From Caldilinea sp. CFX5 (GTDB taxonomy: Bacteria > Chloroflexota > Anaerolineae > Caldilineales > Caldilineaceae): DNA of 64,000 nt. Positions 19,446-54,791 of the stretch are shown here, one piece after another. How positions within the stretch are numbered: position 1 is the first letter of the stretch; the number at the start of each line of letters is the position of its first letter. The position numbers and the translations under genes were made by a program. The stretch lies in assembly GCA_021405325.1 (NCBI GenBank), contig QWII01000001.1, positions 186,001-250,000 on the forward strand, read 5' to 3'. The notes beneath the pieces were generated by a model, which was given only the letters and a program-made list of their open reading frames with translations, was not told the origin of the DNA and did no database searches.

Positions 19446-19553
19446 CGTGATTCGTGATTCGTAATTCGTGCTACGTGATTCTTACTTGACACGGTACACG
19501 CAACACGTAGCACGAATCACGCAGCACGAATCACAAAATCACGAATCACCAGA
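19446..19553. repeat. CACGAATCACG-type palindromic repeat
   Basis: The pheA-aroF gap is filled by GTGATTCGTGATTCG words followed by their complements (CACGTAGCACGAATCACGCAGCACG). It is the same word family as at 3913, 11920, 31370, 41130 and 49138. Confidence 0.7.
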
Positions 19554-19563
19554 GGAGAAAACC

Positions 19564-20633
<1,070 letters not shown>

Positions 20634-20634
<1 letters not shown>

Positions 20635-20870: not shown

Positions 20871-21890
20871 ATGATTATCGTCATGAAACAAGGCGCTGGC
20901 CAGTCAGACATTGAAGCCGTGGTCAAGCGCGTCGAGGAAATGGGCAAAAAGGTGCATCTAAGCCGCGGCGAGGCGCGCACCATTATCGGCGTCATCGGCG
21001 CTGATGAACACATGATCAACGAAGCCAGCTTTGAGGTGATGGATGGCGTCGAGAAGACCATGCGCGTCATGCAGCCCTACAAGCTCGCCAGCCGCGACTT
21101 CAGCCATGAAGATACCCAGATCAAGGTTCACGGTGACATTACGATTGGCGGCAAAAAGATCGCTGTTATGGCCGGCCCCTGTAGCGTGGAAAGCCGGCAG
21201 ATGATTTTGGAAACGGCGCACATGATCAAAGAAGCCGGCGCCACCGTACTACGCGGCGGCGCCTTCAAGCCACGCAGCAGCCCCTACAGCTTCCAAGGCT
21301 TGGGTGAAGAAGGGTTAAAGTACCTGGCCGAAGCGCGCGAAGAAACCGGTCTCGCCATTATCACCGAAGTGATGAGTGTGGATGAGATCGATCTGGTCGG
21401 CGAATACACTGACATTTTCCAGGTCGGCGCCCGCAACAACCAGAACTACTCGTTGCTCAAAGCGTTGGGCAAGGCCAATAAGCCGGTCTTCCTCAAGCGC
21501 GGCATCAGCGGCACGATTCAGGAATTGCTTATGGGCGCTGAATACATTCTGAGCGGCGGCAATATGCAGGTGATGCTCTGCGAACGGGGCATCCGCACCT
21601 ACGAAACCGCCACTCGCAACACCTTTGACATCAATGCCATCCCGCTGCTCAAAGAGTTGACCCACCTGCCCGTCGTGGCGGACCCGGCCCACGGCACGGG
21701 CATGGCGAACCTCGTGCCGGCCATCTCCAAAGCGGCGGTCGCCGCCGGCGCCGATGTCCTCATGGTCGAAGTCCATCCCGACCCCAAGCGGGCCTGGAGT
21801 GACGGCGCCCAGAGTCTCAACCCGGCGGGCTTTGCCAAATTGATGAACGACCTGCGCCCGCTTGCGGCGGCGGTTGGTCGCGAAATCTGA
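20871..21890 (+). CDS. aroF: DAHP synthase, second copy
   Basis: 339 residues, clearly paralogous to the previous gene across the whole length: regulatory domain [20 protein letters not shown], then [81 protein letters not shown] and [14 protein letters not shown]. All barrel metal and PEP residues seem kept in both, so neither is a pseudogene. The regulatory domains differ more than the barrels, which fits two isozymes with separate feedback control. AAGGAG lies eight bases before the ATG. Confidence 0.95.
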
Positions 21891-33578: not shown

Positions 33579-36380
33579 CTACTTCTGGATCAACGGCAGG
33601 AAGAGCGAACGCGTCGTCGGTTGCGCAACCGGATCACCCAGCAGCGCAAATTCGGTGAAGTGATCGAGCGCACCCATTGCTTTGTTGTTGGGAGCATCAA
33701 GCGTCGTCGCCACCAGCACCCACTGACCGGTCGCTTCATCATAGAAATAGAGTTTCAGCGTCCCCTCCACAATTCCCAGCTTTGCCAGGTCGGCATCTGT
33801 GTAGCTGACTTCCAGGTTGTAGTTGGCCTCAAACTGATTGATGGCATCACCCTGGCTGTTCTCGGCAATGAGCCGGAAGAGCCGTAGACCCCGTTTCCCT
33901 GGCGGCAGCGGATGGGTGGGCGTCTGGATCGAGGTATAGAGCAGATCGACGCCGGCGTGGGCATCGGTAGCCGGCAGATCGACCTTGACTTGCCCATCGG
34001 TGCTGGTAAAGCGACCCCACTCGATGATGATACAGATCCGCCACCGTGAGCCACTGATCCAAATCGAGATGCGACCCCGTGCGGCCAGCGTATCGGCAAG
34101 ATTGGTGAGCAGAATTTGCCCATCTTTCACCATGGCTTTGGCGTCGCTATCCGTCACCGGCTGACCGTTGGCCTGAATTTCGATCTTGTCAGCGGTGACT
34201 TCCTGTTTGCCCAGGAAGGTCAAGACGCGCTGTGGATCGACCGGTTGCCCATCCAACTCAGCTTCCGGGTGGTAGGCGATCACCGGGCGGCCATCGACCA
34301 CGACGCGTGGGCTATTGGCCGACCGCAGCGTGATGGTGATGCAGACGCGCCAGTTGCGGCCACTGATCCAGATACCGATGGTCTTGTGTTTCGCCAGCGT
34401 GTTGGCGAGACCGGTAAAGCGCACCTGGTTGCCGGTAACCGTCGCCGTCACTTTTTGGGTCGGGGTGATGATCACCGGATCGGTAAGCACAGCCGCCGCG
34501 CCAAGTGTCGGTTTAAAGAGTTCCACTTTATCCGCCACCACCGGCGTTGAACCAAGCAGGGCCAGCAACCGGCGCACTTCGGTTGGCTGTCCATCAATTT
34601 CGACGATCGGCTCGCTATTGGTCACCTCACGGCCATCCACCGTGACGGCGAGGTTGGCCTTGCTCTCCCAGGTGATGATAATACAGATCCGCCACCGTTT
34701 GCCGCTGATCCAGATGCCGATCTGGGTGCGCGCCGCCAACTCCTGGCCCAGACCGGTCAACAGCAGGTGATCATCGTCCAGGATTGCTTGCACCCCTTGC
34801 GTCAACACTTTGGTCACGCCGGGGTTGGCGGGGTCAAAGAGTTCGATCTTCCCGGCCGTTTCGGCTGCGCCGTCCAGCAGCGCCTGAATCTGCCGCAGTT
34901 CCGTCATCTGACCATCGACCTGGGCTTCCAGTCCTTTCAGCGTCACGTCGCGACCATCGACAGTGACATTTAGGTTGGCGTGACTGCCCCAAGCGAGGAT
35001 AATGCAAACACGCACCTCATCAAGGATCGTGATCCACAGCCCGATTGGGCGCGGCGCCAGGTGTGGCGAGAGGCCCGTGAAGCGCAGATGACTCCCTTCC
35101 ATCACGGCCTGGACGCCTTGGGTCAACACGGTGGTGCTGCTGGGATTAGCCGGGTCAAAGCGTTCGATCTTTTGGGCGGTGACAGCCGTCGTACCGAGCA
35201 GCGCCAGCACCCGGCGCAGATCGGTCGGTCGGCCTTGATATTCCGCTGCAACGCTTTGCAGGGTCGCTACTCGGCCATCAACGGTCACATCCAGGTTGGC
35301 TTTATTGCCCCAGACGATGATGATACAAATGCGCCAGCCACTGCCGCTGACCCAGATGCCAATCCGACCACGCGCCAGGTGTGTGGAGAGGCCGGTCAGC
35401 GAGAGGTGGCTTTCTTTGATCACGGCTTGTACACCCTGCGTCAACACTTTGGTGATGGTGGGAGTGGCTGTGTCGAACAGTTCAATTTTCTCTGCTGTCA
35501 CTGGCGCCGCCCCCAGGAAGGCGAGCACGCGCCGCAGTTCGACGGACTGGCCATTCAGTTGCGCCTCGGTGCCCTCAACCGTGACTTCACGGCCATCGAC
35601 GCTCACATCCAGGTTGGCTTTACTCTCCCAACGAATGATGATGCAGATACGCCAACCACTACCGCTGACCCAGATGCCGATCCGCCCGCGCAGGGCCACT
35701 TCACGGGCGAGGCCGGTCAGGTGCAAGGTGTTGCCATGCACAATGGCCTGCACCCCCTCCGTCACTACGCTGGTAACAGTGGGGTTGGCAGGGTTGAAGA
35801 GTTCGATCCTCTCCGCTGTCACCAGATCAGGCCCTAAAAACGCCAGGAGTTGCGGCAAGGGAACCAGTTGCCCCTGCAATTGCGCTTCCGTTCCCTCGAC
35901 GGTAACATCACGCCCATCGACGCTGACATCCAGATTCGCCTTGCTGCCCCAGGTGAAGATAATACAAACCCGCCAGTTGGCGCCGCTGATCCAGATGCCA
36001 ATGCGGCCACGCGCCGCCAGGGTTTGGGCCAGATTGGTGACTTTGATCGTGCGGCCATGTACCTCAGCGGCCACATTCGTGACGAGGATGGGCGTATCCG
36101 GCGGCGCAAAGACCTCCACCAAGTCCGCCGTGACCGGCTCCAGACCGATTACCTTTAACACCTCAGTATAGGTGGCGGTGCTGCCGTTGAGTTGGGCTTC
36201 CACCCCTTCGACCGTGACGGCGCGGCCATCGACCCAGACCGTCAGCTCATCCCCGTCGGCGGCGGCCACCGGTTGCGACCAGGCGCCAACCACCATGAAC
36301 AAGCCAAACAAAAGACCCAACGCCAACAGGCAGGGTCGCACAAAGGACAAACGTTTTGCAGAATTAGCGCTCCATTCCAT
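33579..36380 (-). CDS. Secreted protein made of seven ~105-residue repeats with an IGIWISG...CIII signature
   Basis: 933 residues. After a signal peptide (hydrophobic PCLLALGLLFGLFMVVGAW, cleavage near AAA) come seven tandem repeats of about 103-114 residues to roughly residue 760. Each opens with a V(D/T)VDGR strand, has an EAQLNGQ-like turn, an LLALLG helix and TAEKIELFDPANP, and ends IGIWISGSGWRICIIIxW. A C-terminal domain of about 140 residues follows (YNLEVSYTDADL, LKLYFYDEATGQWVLV). The last residues LFLPLIQK resemble the C-terminal tail common on exported Chloroflexota proteins. ATG 36380 has AGGAGG ten bases upstream. Single gene. I recognise no family for the repeat. Confidence 0.85.
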   Translation of the reverse strand: MEWSANSAKRLSFVRPCLLALGLLFGLFMVVGAWSQPVAAADGDELTVWVDGRAVTVEGVEAQLNGSTATYTEVLKVIGLEPVTADLVEVFAPPDTPILVTNVAAEVHGRTIKVTNLAQTLAARGRIGIWISGANWRVCIIFTWGSKANLDVSVDGRDVTVEGTEAQLQGQLVPLPQLLAFLGPDLVTAERIELFNPANPTVTSVVTEGVQAIVHGNTLHLTGLAREVALRGRIGIWVSGSGWRICIIIRWESKANLDVSVDGREVTVEGTEAQLNGQSVELRRVLAFLGAAPVTAEKIELFDTATPTITKVLTQGVQAVIKESHLSLTGLSTHLARGRIGIWVSGSGWRICIIIVWGNKANLDVTVDGRVATLQSVAAEYQGRPTDLRRVLALLGTTAVTAQKIERFDPANPSSTTVLTQGVQAVMEGSHLRFTGLSPHLAPRPIGLWITILDEVRVCIILAWGSHANLNVTVDGRDVTLKGLEAQVDGQMTELRQIQALLDGAAETAGKIELFDPANPGVTKVLTQGVQAILDDDHLLLTGLGQELAARTQIGIWISGKRWRICIIITWESKANLAVTVDGREVTNSEPIVEIDGQPTEVRRLLALLGSTPVVADKVELFKPTLGAAAVLTDPVIITPTQKVTATVTGNQVRFTGLANTLAKHKTIGIWISGRNWRVCITITLRSANSPRVVVDGRPVIAYHPEAELDGQPVDPQRVLTFLGKQEVTADKIEIQANGQPVTDSDAKAMVKDGQILLTNLADTLAARGRISIWISGSRWRICIIIEWGRFTSTDGQVKVDLPATDAHAGVDLLYTSIQTPTHPLPPGKRGLRLFRLIAENSQGDAINQFEANYNLEVSYTDADLAKLGIVEGTLKLYFYDEATGQWVLVATTLDAPNNKAMGALDHFTEFALLGDPVAQPTTRSLFLPLIQK

Positions 36381-36497
36381 CGATTGATGCCTCCTATGCA
36401 ATTGTCATCATGGGATTTGATTTCGGCGGGCGCGGAGAGAGTGCAGTGTATTTAAACAGACGTTTGGTATGCGCTTTCGATACGGTCAACATCGCAA

Positions 36498-50893: not shown

Positions 50894-50898
50894 AACAG

Positions 50899-50971
50899 CA
50901 AGCGTGCCAGGCACTGGCCAATCGAAGTTTGCAATGACAGGATATTTCCCGGCCAGTGCCTGGCACGCTTG
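50899..50971. repeat. Inverted repeat CAAGCGTGCCAGGCACTGGCC
   Basis: 21-base perfect arms (50899-50919 and 50951-50971) with 31 bases between, in the convergent gap between lactonase and DapF-like genes. It may work as a bidirectional transcription end. Confidence 0.8.
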
Positions 50972-51008
50972 CGGCCCCAATGAGCGCTAATGCGGAGCGT
51001 GTCACTTT

Positions 51009-51848
51009 TCACCCAAACGCCTCCGCCGCCAACTCGCCAACACACACCTTCGTCACGGCGCCCGTCATGCGGATCGACCAATCCGGGCCAATACCGATTT
51101 CGATCACACCGCCGGGGCAGTGGACATGAATCTGGTTATCACACAGCCCCAGGCGATGAGCTACCGCTGCCGCTGCGCTACTGCTGCTCCCCGACGCCAG
51201 TGTGTAACCGGCTCCCCGCTCCCAAATCTCTATGCGGATATTATTGCGATCCAGCACCTGCATGAATTGGACATTGGTGCGGTTAGGAAAGCGCTCGGCG
51301 CTTTCCAGGTGTGGTCCCAGAGTATAGGCGATGGCGGCATTCACTTCATCCATCAACACGACACAATGCGGATTGCCCACCGTCGCCGCGCAATAGCGTA
51401 ATGCTTGACCCGCCACTTCAATCGTTTCATTGAGAACTTCACGGGGCGGGCCGGCCACTGGGATGCGGGTGCTGTCAAAGCTGACCTGGCCCATATCCAC
51501 CGTCACGCGCCGGCCCTGGTCAAAGACCTGCGCCGTCACCCGTCCACCGGGGGTCATGATCGTGAAGGGTTCGTTCTGTACCAAGCCTTCATCCCAGAGG
51601 TAGCGGGCAAAGATGCGCAAGCCGTTCCCGCTCTTCTCAAACTCGCCGCCATCGGGGTTGAAGAGCCGCAAGCCAAAGTCGGCTGCTGTACTGAGCAGTG
51701 GCCCCAGCAAGATGCCGTCTGAGCCGACGCCGTAGTGGCGATCACAGATGCGGATGATTTCAGCAGTGGTGAGACCATTGGGGGTATCTGCCGGTGGAAT
51801 AACAATGTAATCATTGCCGAGCGCTTGGTATTTGTAAAAGCGCATCAT
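51009..51848 (-). CDS. dapF: DapF-family protein with both catalytic cysteines replaced by serine
   Basis: 279 residues with the two-lobed diaminopimelate-epimerase fold. KYQALGNDYIVIPP, HYGVGSDGILL, NPDGGEFEKSGNGLRIFARY and WERGAGYTLASGSSSSAAAA match the family line by line. DapF removes and adds the alpha proton with Cys73 (in MCGNG) and Cys217 (in ACGTG); here the codons read Ser73 (KSGNG) and Ser219 (ASGSS). Normal epimerase chemistry is therefore doubtful. ATG 51848 overlaps the stop of the thioesterase gene (TGATG), so it belongs to a PhyH-thioesterase-dapF operon, not a lysine operon. Confidence 0.88.
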   Translation of the reverse strand: MMRFYKYQALGNDYIVIPPADTPNGLTTAEIIRICDRHYGVGSDGILLGPLLSTAADFGLRLFNPDGGEFEKSGNGLRIFARYLWDEGLVQNEPFTIMTPGGRVTAQVFDQGRRVTVDMGQVSFDSTRIPVAGPPREVLNETIEVAGQALRYCAATVGNPHCVVLMDEVNAAIAYTLGPHLESAERFPNRTNVQFMQVLDRNNIRIEIWERGAGYTLASGSSSSAAAAVAHRLGLCDNQIHVHCPGGVIEIGIGPDWSIRMTGAVTKVCVGELAAEAFG

Positions 51849-53546: not shown

Positions 53547-54791
53547 ATGACAACACGTCTCTACTACACCAACGCCTATCAAACTGAATTTACCGCCAAT
53601 GTCACCACCCTCACCACAGTCAATGGCCAACTGGCGGTAATCCTTGACCAAAGCTGCTTTTATCCCACTTCCGGTGGTCAACCCAACGATACGGGGATCT
53701 TAGGCGGTAAAGCGGTTTTGGATGTCATGGTTGACGAACAAGGGGAAGTGCTGCACCTGCTGGCCGAACCATTGGCGCCGGAGCAAGCATGGGAACCGAT
53801 CACAGGCCAGCTCGATTGGCCGCGCCGCTACGACCATATGCAGCAACATAGCGGGCAACATCTACTCTCACAACTCTTTTATCAACATTTTGGCTTTGAG
53901 ACAGTCGCCGTTCACTTTGGCGCCGTCGAGTCGACCCTGGATCTGGCAACGCCGGAAGTGACGCCGGCCCAGGTTGAGGCGCTTGAGCAGGCTGCTATGC
54001 AGCTTGTCTACGCCGCCTTACCAATCAAAGCCTATTTCGTCAGCGACCAGGATCTGCCCACCATTCCCCTGCGCCGGGCGCCAAAGGTGACCGGAACCAT
54101 TCGCATTGTGGAGATCGATGGCTTTGATTACTCAGCTTGTGGCGGCACCCACTGTCGCACGACGGCGGAGATCGGGCCGATCAAATTGACCAAAACCGAA
54201 CGACGACGGGGACAAGTGCGCATCACCTTTTTGTGTGGGCAGCGGGCCTGGCGCGATTACCAAGTCAAACATGGGTTGATCACCACAGCGGCCAACCTCT
54301 TCAGCAATGAAATTACCCAGGTGCCGGCCCTGGTCGAGCGGAATTTGGGGCAGATCAAAGAACTGCAACAAACCATAGATGGTCTACAAGAAGAACTATT
54401 GCGCGCCGAAGCCTTGCAACTTTTGTCTGCGGCCAGCTTTGTCAACGGCTATCGGCTCCTGTCCCAGCATTTTGCCGACCGCGCGGTCAACCTGGTCAAA
54501 CGGCTTGCCCTGCAAGTGCAACAACAGCCGCGCGCGCTTTGTCTTTTCAGTGTACAGCAAGGGGAGAAGGCGACGTTGATCTTTGCCCGGTCAGCCGATC
54601 TCGATCTCCATGTCGGCAACCTGTTGCGCGACATTTTGCGTGAAGTTGGTGGTAAGGGGGGTGGGCGTGAAGATTTTGCCCAAGGGGGCGGTATTACGAT
54701 AGAAGAGAGCAGGCGGCTCCTACCCCTGAGTGCGACAATGGTAGAGCAACTGACCAGCGCCGATGCCGCCAAAGCCGCCATTGACGCTTGA
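53547..54791 (+). CDS. alaX: Free-standing alanyl-tRNA editing protein, AlaX-L type with DHHA1 domain
   Basis: 414 residues. It lacks the AlaRS catalytic core and begins with the editing region: LDQSCFYPTSGGQPNDTG, then HMQQHSGQHLLSQLF (HxxxH zinc site) and FDYSACGGTHCRTTAEIG (Cys and His zinc ligands). A linker with coiled coil leads to a DHHA1 domain ending LREVGGKGGGREDFAQGGG. Such proteins hydrolyse mischarged Ser-tRNA-Ala or Gly-tRNA-Ala in trans. It stands alone. Confidence 0.93.
   Translation: MTTRLYYTNAYQTEFTANVTTLTTVNGQLAVILDQSCFYPTSGGQPNDTGILGGKAVLDVMVDEQGEVLHLLAEPLAPEQAWEPITGQLDWPRRYDHMQQHSGQHLLSQLFYQHFGFETVAVHFGAVESTLDLATPEVTPAQVEALEQAAMQLVYAALPIKAYFVSDQDLPTIPLRRAPKVTGTIRIVEIDGFDYSACGGTHCRTTAEIGPIKLTKTERRRGQVRITFLCGQRAWRDYQVKHGLITTAANLFSNEITQVPALVERNLGQIKELQQTIDGLQEELLRAEALQLLSAASFVNGYRLLSQHFADRAVNLVKRLALQVQQQPRALCLFSVQQGEKATLIFARSADLDLHVGNLLRDILREVGGKGGGREDFAQGGGITIEESRRLLPLSATMVEQLTSADAAKAAIDA

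Follow-up and report, generated by a model that had tools for sequence, protein, structure and literature searches.

A DapF-like protein of Caldilinea sp. CFX5 with serine at both catalytic cysteine positions, and its relatives

Results

The dapF-like gene and its surroundings

The stretch of 64,000 nucleotides from Caldilinea sp. CFX5 that was analysed here (the window) contains a dapF-like gene on the reverse strand together with genes for a hot-dog thioesterase and a PhyH-family oxygenase (Table 1). These neighbours are as first described in a sequence-only reading of the window, and no lysine gene in the window is adjacent to the dapF-like gene. Where the SGL and dapF genes converge, a perfect inverted repeat, each arm about 20 bp long, was seen by eye in the space between them; it is perhaps a two-way terminator. 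Elsewhere the window encodes a stand-alone alanyl-tRNA editing-like protein, which scores below the AlaXM cut-off, and by eye two adjacent DAHP synthase-like frames and a large protein with repeated motifs were also seen.

Table 1. Positions of the features described (window coordinates unless a locus is named)
Feature	Position	Strand	Remarks
dapF-like gene, Ser/Ser type I	51009..51848	-	279 aa plus stop; single open frame
Ser73, codon AGC	51630..51632 (read 51632-51630)	-	First catalytic Cys position; sequence and alignments
Ser219, codon TCG	51192..51194 (read 51194-51192)	-	Second catalytic Cys position; sequence and alignments
Lys72	51633..51635	-	Weighted: type I K 0.95, R 0.03; Cys/Cys Met 0.60, Ala 0.24
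Gln194	51267..51269	-	Cys/Cys Glu 0.86 (weighted); Gln also in Cys/Ser class
Tyr215	51204..51206	-	Cys/Cys mostly Glu, Ile or Leu
Ser222	51183..51185	-	Cys/Cys Gly 1.00 (weighted); Ser also in Cys/Ser class
Hot-dog thioesterase, 4HBT_2, PF13279	51848..52309	-	Stop overlaps dapF start
PhyH-family oxygenase, PF05721	52306..53160	-	Upstream of thioesterase
Inverted repeat	50898-50972 (arms 50898-50919, 50951-50972)		Perhaps a two-way terminator
Alanyl-tRNA editing-like protein	53547-54791	+	414 aa; DHHA1 domain
DAHP synthase-like frames	19468-20634, 20871-21890	+	In aromatic amino acid gene cluster
Protein with repeated motifs	33579-36401	-	940 aa; several VDGR...GIWISG...CIII-like repeats
LysA-DapF fusion frame	L212:166-2445		
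LysA-DapF fusion frame	L202:1498-3723		
LysA-DapF fusion frame	L210:1462-3720		
LysA-DapF fusion frame	L220:79-2430		
LysA-DapF fusion frame	L201:1474-3822		
LysA-DapF fusion frame	L209:1-2418		
LysA-DapF fusion frame	L215:1483-3549		
Ser/Ser DapF region, Kitasatospora	L035:5558-10814		Adjoining aminotransferase and NRPS module

The protein matches the DapF model TIGR00652 over its whole length with 231.8 bits, well above the equivalog cut-off of 114.65, and yet it lacks the two catalytic cysteines of DapF. Ser73 and Ser219 align with the catalytic Cys columns of Cys/Cys DapFs, so that the serines claimed for both positions are borne out by codons and by alignment columns alike. From the PROSITE signature of DapF, quoted in PMC8225329 as N-x-(DN)-(GS)-(SENGFT)-x(4)-C-(GI)-N-(GA)-x-R, NPDGGEFEKSGNGLR departs in a by-eye comparison by having Ser for Cys, and agrees with it otherwise. 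The window protein (P0001) did not reach the Pfam Pro_racemase cut-off and matched PF01678 alone at E 0.001, and against the bifunctional DapF/glutamate racemase model NF038284 it scored 67.8 bits, with a cut-off of 350 bits.

An AF2 model of the protein (pLDDT 95.0, pTM 0.89) has the DapF fold, with DapF structures as its top PDB matches (Foldseek/VIA). In the model, Ser73 and Ser219 are placed immediately N-terminal of helices H74-86 and H220-232, and the catalytic cysteines of DapF are described in the corresponding helix-preceding place (PMC12039745).

Relatives and active-site classes

The protein search gave at least 8000 homologues of the window protein. Serine is found at both positions in all 119 of the matches listed, the window's own cluster (P0002) being excluded from 120, and the substitution is therefore beyond chance or sequencing error. 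An artefact of sequencing or assembly, or local decay, at both codons has next to no chance of being the explanation and was rejected, since these homologues and further genomes share both serines. The proposal that the paired replacement is selected and not decayed agrees with this conservation across homologues.

A pattern search of named genomes gave 38 loci, 37 of them Ser/Ser and one (L038) a distant Cys/Cys protein. Their titles name, among others, Chloroflexota, Planctomycetes, Opitutaceae-type bacteria, Nostoc, Marinomonas and Kitasatospora. The plasmid collection gave 118 matching records, every one below 60% identity. A DapF match was found in 97 of 251 Chloroflexota genomes, one in each, and 95 of the matches were above the cut-off. 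Seven of the 97 were left outside the classification (G206, G067, G139, G099, the fragments G086 and G229, and G001, which is the same as L001), and the other 90 consist of 62 Cys/Cys, 23 Ser/Ser (21 type I and 2 type II), 3 Ser/Cys and 2 Cys/Ser proteins. Judged by their titles, many of the genomes are draft MAGs.

The relatives fall into stable classes, namely Ser/Ser type I with the window protein, Ser/Ser type II and Cys/Ser, and in addition there are the three Ser/Cys cases. With L169 as query, 120 of 120 among the matches listed were Cys/Ser (L152, L169 and P0122-P0241), which makes this a second stable class, and with L175 as query 120 of 120 among the matches listed were Ser/Ser type II. 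Names in these two match lists include Tepidiforma (in the Cys/Ser list), Dehalococcoidia and SAR202.

A careful tree was built with the seven signature columns removed and with 66 rows: 18 type I, 4 type II, 7 Cys/Ser, 3 Ser/Cys and 34 Cys/Cys (L192, L181 and L052 were excluded). The type I rows, including the window protein, form one clade (SS1, 100/91), as do the Cys/Ser rows (100/100) and the type II rows (100/100), the last nested among Cys/Cys and Ser/Cys proteins in a supported group. Three changes are needed to account for the three Ser/Cys proteins, and supported branches force two of them. A tree constrained to unite the two Ser/Ser types was worse by 35 log units but was not rejected with the 66 rows (AU p 0.065); nor was a single Ser/Ser clade rejected in a quick tree of 107 rows (AU p 0.643), where the forced tree was even better. 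Type II is found amid Cys/Cys rows but the AU p value is 0.065, and the sequences therefore suggest at most that the double replacement occurred independently in the two Ser/Ser types.

It had been asked at the outset whether the Ser variants form a clade tied to PhyH and thioesterase neighbours. The clade was recovered, and the tie was not: the thioesterase, PhyH, AlaX and SGL proteins of the window had no tblastn match at 1e-3 in the loci of the relatives, which have up to 69% identity and in some cases flanks of only about 1.5 kb or almost none. Closer kin of the window protein, with 70-93% identity, are found among the protein matches listed. Ten neighbours from the Nostoc, Marinomonas, Kitasatospora and other loci had no partner in common when scanned with Pfam.

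Copy number and replacement of Cys/Cys DapF

TIGR00652 matched once in 25 of the first 37 genomes and more than once in the other 12, the second match in G019 being a fragment below the cut-off. No extra DapF was found by PF01678 in the 25 single-match genomes, 17 of which have LysA above the cut-off and 10 TIGR03542 DapL. DAP dehydrogenase above the cut-off was found in none of 37 and none of 42 genomes. Nostoc and Marinomonas carry a Ser/Ser protein in addition to a Cys/Cys DapF, and Kitasatospora has two DapF matches. The Ser/Ser gene of the Kitasatospora locus L035 adjoins an aminotransferase gene and an NRPS module with condensation, AMP-binding and carrier domains, and the region is possibly a biosynthetic cluster.

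In the family of G006, a genome titled Opitutaceae, the window protein was matched in 141 of 150 genomes. These comprise 121 strong near matches (55-67% identity), two short fragments (G718, G779), 17 genomes with a distant match only (27-33% identity) and one ambiguous case (G709). All 17 distant DapFs are Cys/Cys. The near loci read Ser/Ser in 29 of 30 cases, and L254, which escaped the pattern, has the same place as L012 (Ser/Ser). Three more near-type loci also read Ser/Ser, and the remaining near-type genomes were assigned by identity.

A near-type and a distant DapF were seen together in none of the 150 genomes; in G713 the near match is accompanied by a weak partial match (39%) within a frame of 1596 aa. 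If the two were independent, co-occurrence would be expected in about 14 genomes (shares 123 and 17 of 150), a number that stands without a formal test because the genomes are related. DapL was above the cut-off in 18 of 20 near-type genomes, chosen from the 123 mainly for long contigs, and in 16 of 17 distant-type genomes. Isolates of Opitutaceae contain DAP according to GC/MS, the isomer being unnamed, a thin-layer test found no DL-DAP, and DapA, DapB, DapL and DapF are reported for one strain (PMC5303756).

Linkage and fusion to lysine genes

A TIGR03540 aminotransferase (DapL) match adjoins the dapF match in 6 of the 23 Ser/Ser Chloroflexota genomes. In G222 and G126, both type II, it is on the same strand and about 30-36 bases away. 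It is also on the same strand in G141, G117 and G133, with only about 300 bits in the last two, and convergent with dapF in G093. The same gene order is found in Ser/Cys (G256, G215), Cys/Ser (G243, G173) and Cys/Cys (G041, G187, G250) genomes, and 15 of the 30 Cys/Cys loci L108-L137 show it as well. The lysA gene is near a Ser/Ser dapF in three other genomes: it is divergent at about 200 bases in G103, convergent at about 40 bases in G174, and about 1.2 kb away in G216. Two of the closest dapL cases are type II and the neighbouring lysA genes do not share the strand of dapF, which makes the linkage thinner for type I.

The TIGR03540 cut-off of 593.25 was reached in none of the 23 Ser/Ser Chloroflexota genomes, where the best score was 579.2 bits; 15 of them had at least 556 bits and 8 at most 330. 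LysA was above the cut-off in 22 of the 23 (G093 has LysA in two pieces), in all five Ser/Cys or Cys/Ser genomes, in 10 of 12 Cys/Cys genomes and in 5 of 12 DapF-less Chloroflexota genomes. These last five (G040, G047, G049, G051, G057) have neither a DapF match nor a DAP dehydrogenase above the cut-off, which makes a second route to meso-DAP, or incompleteness, possible. The presence of LysA in DapF-less genomes means that a sole DapF in a genome does not prove it to be 'the epimerase'.

In the class of G001 the window protein was matched in 58 of 396 genomes, and the 28 new loci from this class are all Ser/Ser. A LysA match is adjacent to dapF in 10 of them, and in nine of these LysA and dapF share one open frame (L217 and L228 are cut at the locus end and L227 is ambiguous). 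Seven Chloroflexota frames were scanned (Table 1), and every one exceeds the equivalog cut-off of lysA as well as that of DapF; the match to lysA in L215 begins at the locus end, from position 52 of the profile. The fusions L201 and L202 are the two best-scoring relatives of the window protein among the 396 genomes. Neither a LysA-DapF fusion nor a natural Ser-type DapF was found in a literature search of titles and abstract openings, a search of incomplete coverage that is no proof of absence. The distance from lysine genes described in the sequence-only reading applies to the window and finds no support as a general rule, because some relatives adjoin dapL or lysA or share a frame with lysA.

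Residues that accompany the serines

Weighted residue frequencies were compared between 202 type I rows and 70 Cys/Cys rows (L052 and L181 excluded). The two sets are separated by S73, S219, K72, I79, Q194, Y215 and S222, and the position of I79 is Cys in the Cys/Cys set (weighted 1.00). Among the matches listed for the Cys/Ser class, Ser222 was found in 120 of 120 and Gln194 in 119 of 120, with one His. Positions 194, 219 and 222 appear coupled, because the Cys/Ser class is found elsewhere in the tree and has both Ser222 and Gln194. Type II, on the other hand, has M72, E215, E194 and G222 in 120 of 120 among the matches listed, and the changes to K72, Q194 and S222 are therefore no universal requirement.

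The residues described as holding the substrate are conserved. Asn66, Asn164, Asn197, Glu215 and Arg216 of Anabaena DapF are described as gripping the distal end of DAP (PMC12039745), and they correspond to N64, N159, N192, E210 and R211 in the window protein. All five pass the conservation limits of 0.95 in type I and 0.93 in Cys/Cys, and the proteins compared from the type II, Cys/Ser and Ser/Cys groups retain them as well.

Discussion

Comparison with known enzymes

The O-ureidoserine racemase 7vdy is a DapF-like enzyme that has the Cys pair and acts on another substrate. PddB and HisR/CntK are likewise DapF-like racemases for other substrates that retain the Cys pair, unlike the Ser/Ser window protein. 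In DapF itself (TIGR00652; E. coli 4ijz, P. aeruginosa 8qzy, Anabaena 9mro) the Cys pair is found where the window protein has its Ser pair together with K72, I79, Q194, Y215 and S222. The single-Ser DapF structures among the PDB matches, 2q9h and 2q9j, are engineered mutants, whereas the serines of the window protein are natural.

Two enzymes of the proline racemase superfamily resemble the window protein in their related fold and in a natural Ser at the first catalytic position. They differ in that they act on other substrates and either retain one Cys or carry out an elimination, whereas the window protein is Ser/Ser with an intact DAP site. The natural Ser/Cys 4-hydroxyproline 2-epimerase is described as still being an epimerase, so that there Ser in place of one Cys is compatible with epimerase activity; the other enzyme, trans-3-hydroxyproline dehydratase, has a Ser/Thr pair (PMC4113996). 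The aspartate/glutamate racemase EcL-DER has a Thr/Cys pair and is described as cofactor-independent with a one-way reaction (PMC8142540). It is similar in that a hydroxyl residue replaces one Cys, but it differs in its family, in the retained Cys and in the one-way reaction. The Ser/Cys epimerase and EcL-DER are precedents for a hydroxyl residue on one face, and no description of an epimerase with Ser on both faces was found in the portions of the literature examined.

Function of the Ser/Ser proteins

The window protein is probably (at roughly 0.6) a working DAP epimerase that converts LL-DAP to meso-DAP with Ser73 and Ser219 as acid/base pair, and that belongs to a large group derived from DapF. 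DAP epimerisation by the Ser/Ser proteins is suggested by the conserved fold, the DAP-holding residues and the conserved Ser pair, by the linkage or fusion to dapL or lysA in some relatives, by the frequent single-copy status and by the replacement of Cys/Cys DapF in one family. Confidence in this reading is moderated because the lysine-gene linkage is thinner for type I and because the gene surroundings compared come from relatives with at most 69% identity to the window protein.

Alternatively, though this is unlikely, the Ser/Ser protein has lost catalysis and, as a DAP-binding DapF, serves as a regulator or scaffold of LysA or DapL, with meso-DAP coming from another enzyme. Engineered mutants do point in this direction, with a single Cys-to-Ser change reported to leave less than 0.1% activity in PddB (PMC8225329) and greatly reduced activity in HisR (PMC11602996). 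A second function is also known for E. coli DapF, which has a side role as a partner of RppH (PDB 6d13; title of PMC4227774), and the LysA of some DapF-less Chloroflexota suggests that another route to meso-DAP may exist. However, near-type (Ser/Ser) and Cys/Cys proteins were not seen together in the 150 genomes of the one Opitutaceae-type family, where DapL is found with both. The DAP-holding residues are conserved, and the coupled changes near the serines point to a working site and not to decay. Moreover, no TIGR03540 match exceeded 293 bits in the eight DapF-less Chloroflexota genomes tested, as against the scores of at least 556 bits in most of the Ser/Ser genomes.

The sequence-only reading proposed a new activity by analogy with the proline racemase group; such a changed reaction, for instance an elimination or a different racemisation, is clearly improbable for the Ser/Ser proteins. 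The Ser/Thr pair of the dehydratase gives it a precedent, and the gene beside the NRPS module in Kitasatospora, the extra copies in Nostoc and Marinomonas and the PhyH and thioesterase neighbours in the window would all suit it. It is difficult to reconcile with the lysA frame shared in some relatives and the dapL or lysA neighbours in others, and with a Ser/Ser protein that is often the sole DapF. DAP has no beta leaving group. The proposal keeps some chance and becomes the weaker reading because of this and because the DAP-holding residues are kept; members present as an extra copy, or the closest kin of the window protein, may have acquired a new activity.

The Ser/Ser proteins might also be DAP epimerases whose serines only shape the site, the true base being Lys72, Tyr215 or a bound water, and this we regard as quite unlikely. 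In its favour, Lys72 is next to Ser73 and nearly invariant in type I. However, both K72 and Y215 are absent from the type II matches listed, and position 72 is Thr, Val or Leu in a few type I rows.

The chemistry of the DapF class rests on a thiol/thiolate pair, and the proton that DapF moves has a pKa of about 29. With the preferred reading of a Ser/Ser epimerase, Ser73 and Ser219 would themselves move protons as a two-sided acid/base pair in place of the two cysteines. The helix N-termini that follow them would raise their acidity. In type I, the added Lys72, the lost charge of Glu194 and the change to Ser222 could favour an alkoxide-like serine.

Conclusions

On the evidence from homologues and gene neighbourhoods there is about an even chance that thiol-free, cofactor-independent amino acid epimerisation is widespread in bacteria. 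It would be carried out by lineages of DapF, among them those of Chloroflexota and Opitutaceae-type Verrucomicrobiota, that have Ser in place of one or both Cys, possibly with more than one origin, and that still supply meso-DAP for lysine and the cell wall by means of a tuned Ser pair, fused to LysA in some Chloroflexota. Cys/Cys, Ser/Cys, Cys/Ser and Ser/Ser proteins make up an evolutionary series in which positions 194, 219 and 222 are apparently coupled. Annotation is affected because the DapF equivalog model passes Ser-type proteins silently, and so are expectations for thiol-directed DapF inhibitors. The Ser-type lineages, which often have this protein as their sole DapF, would allow proton transfer driven by hydroxyl groups to be probed directly.
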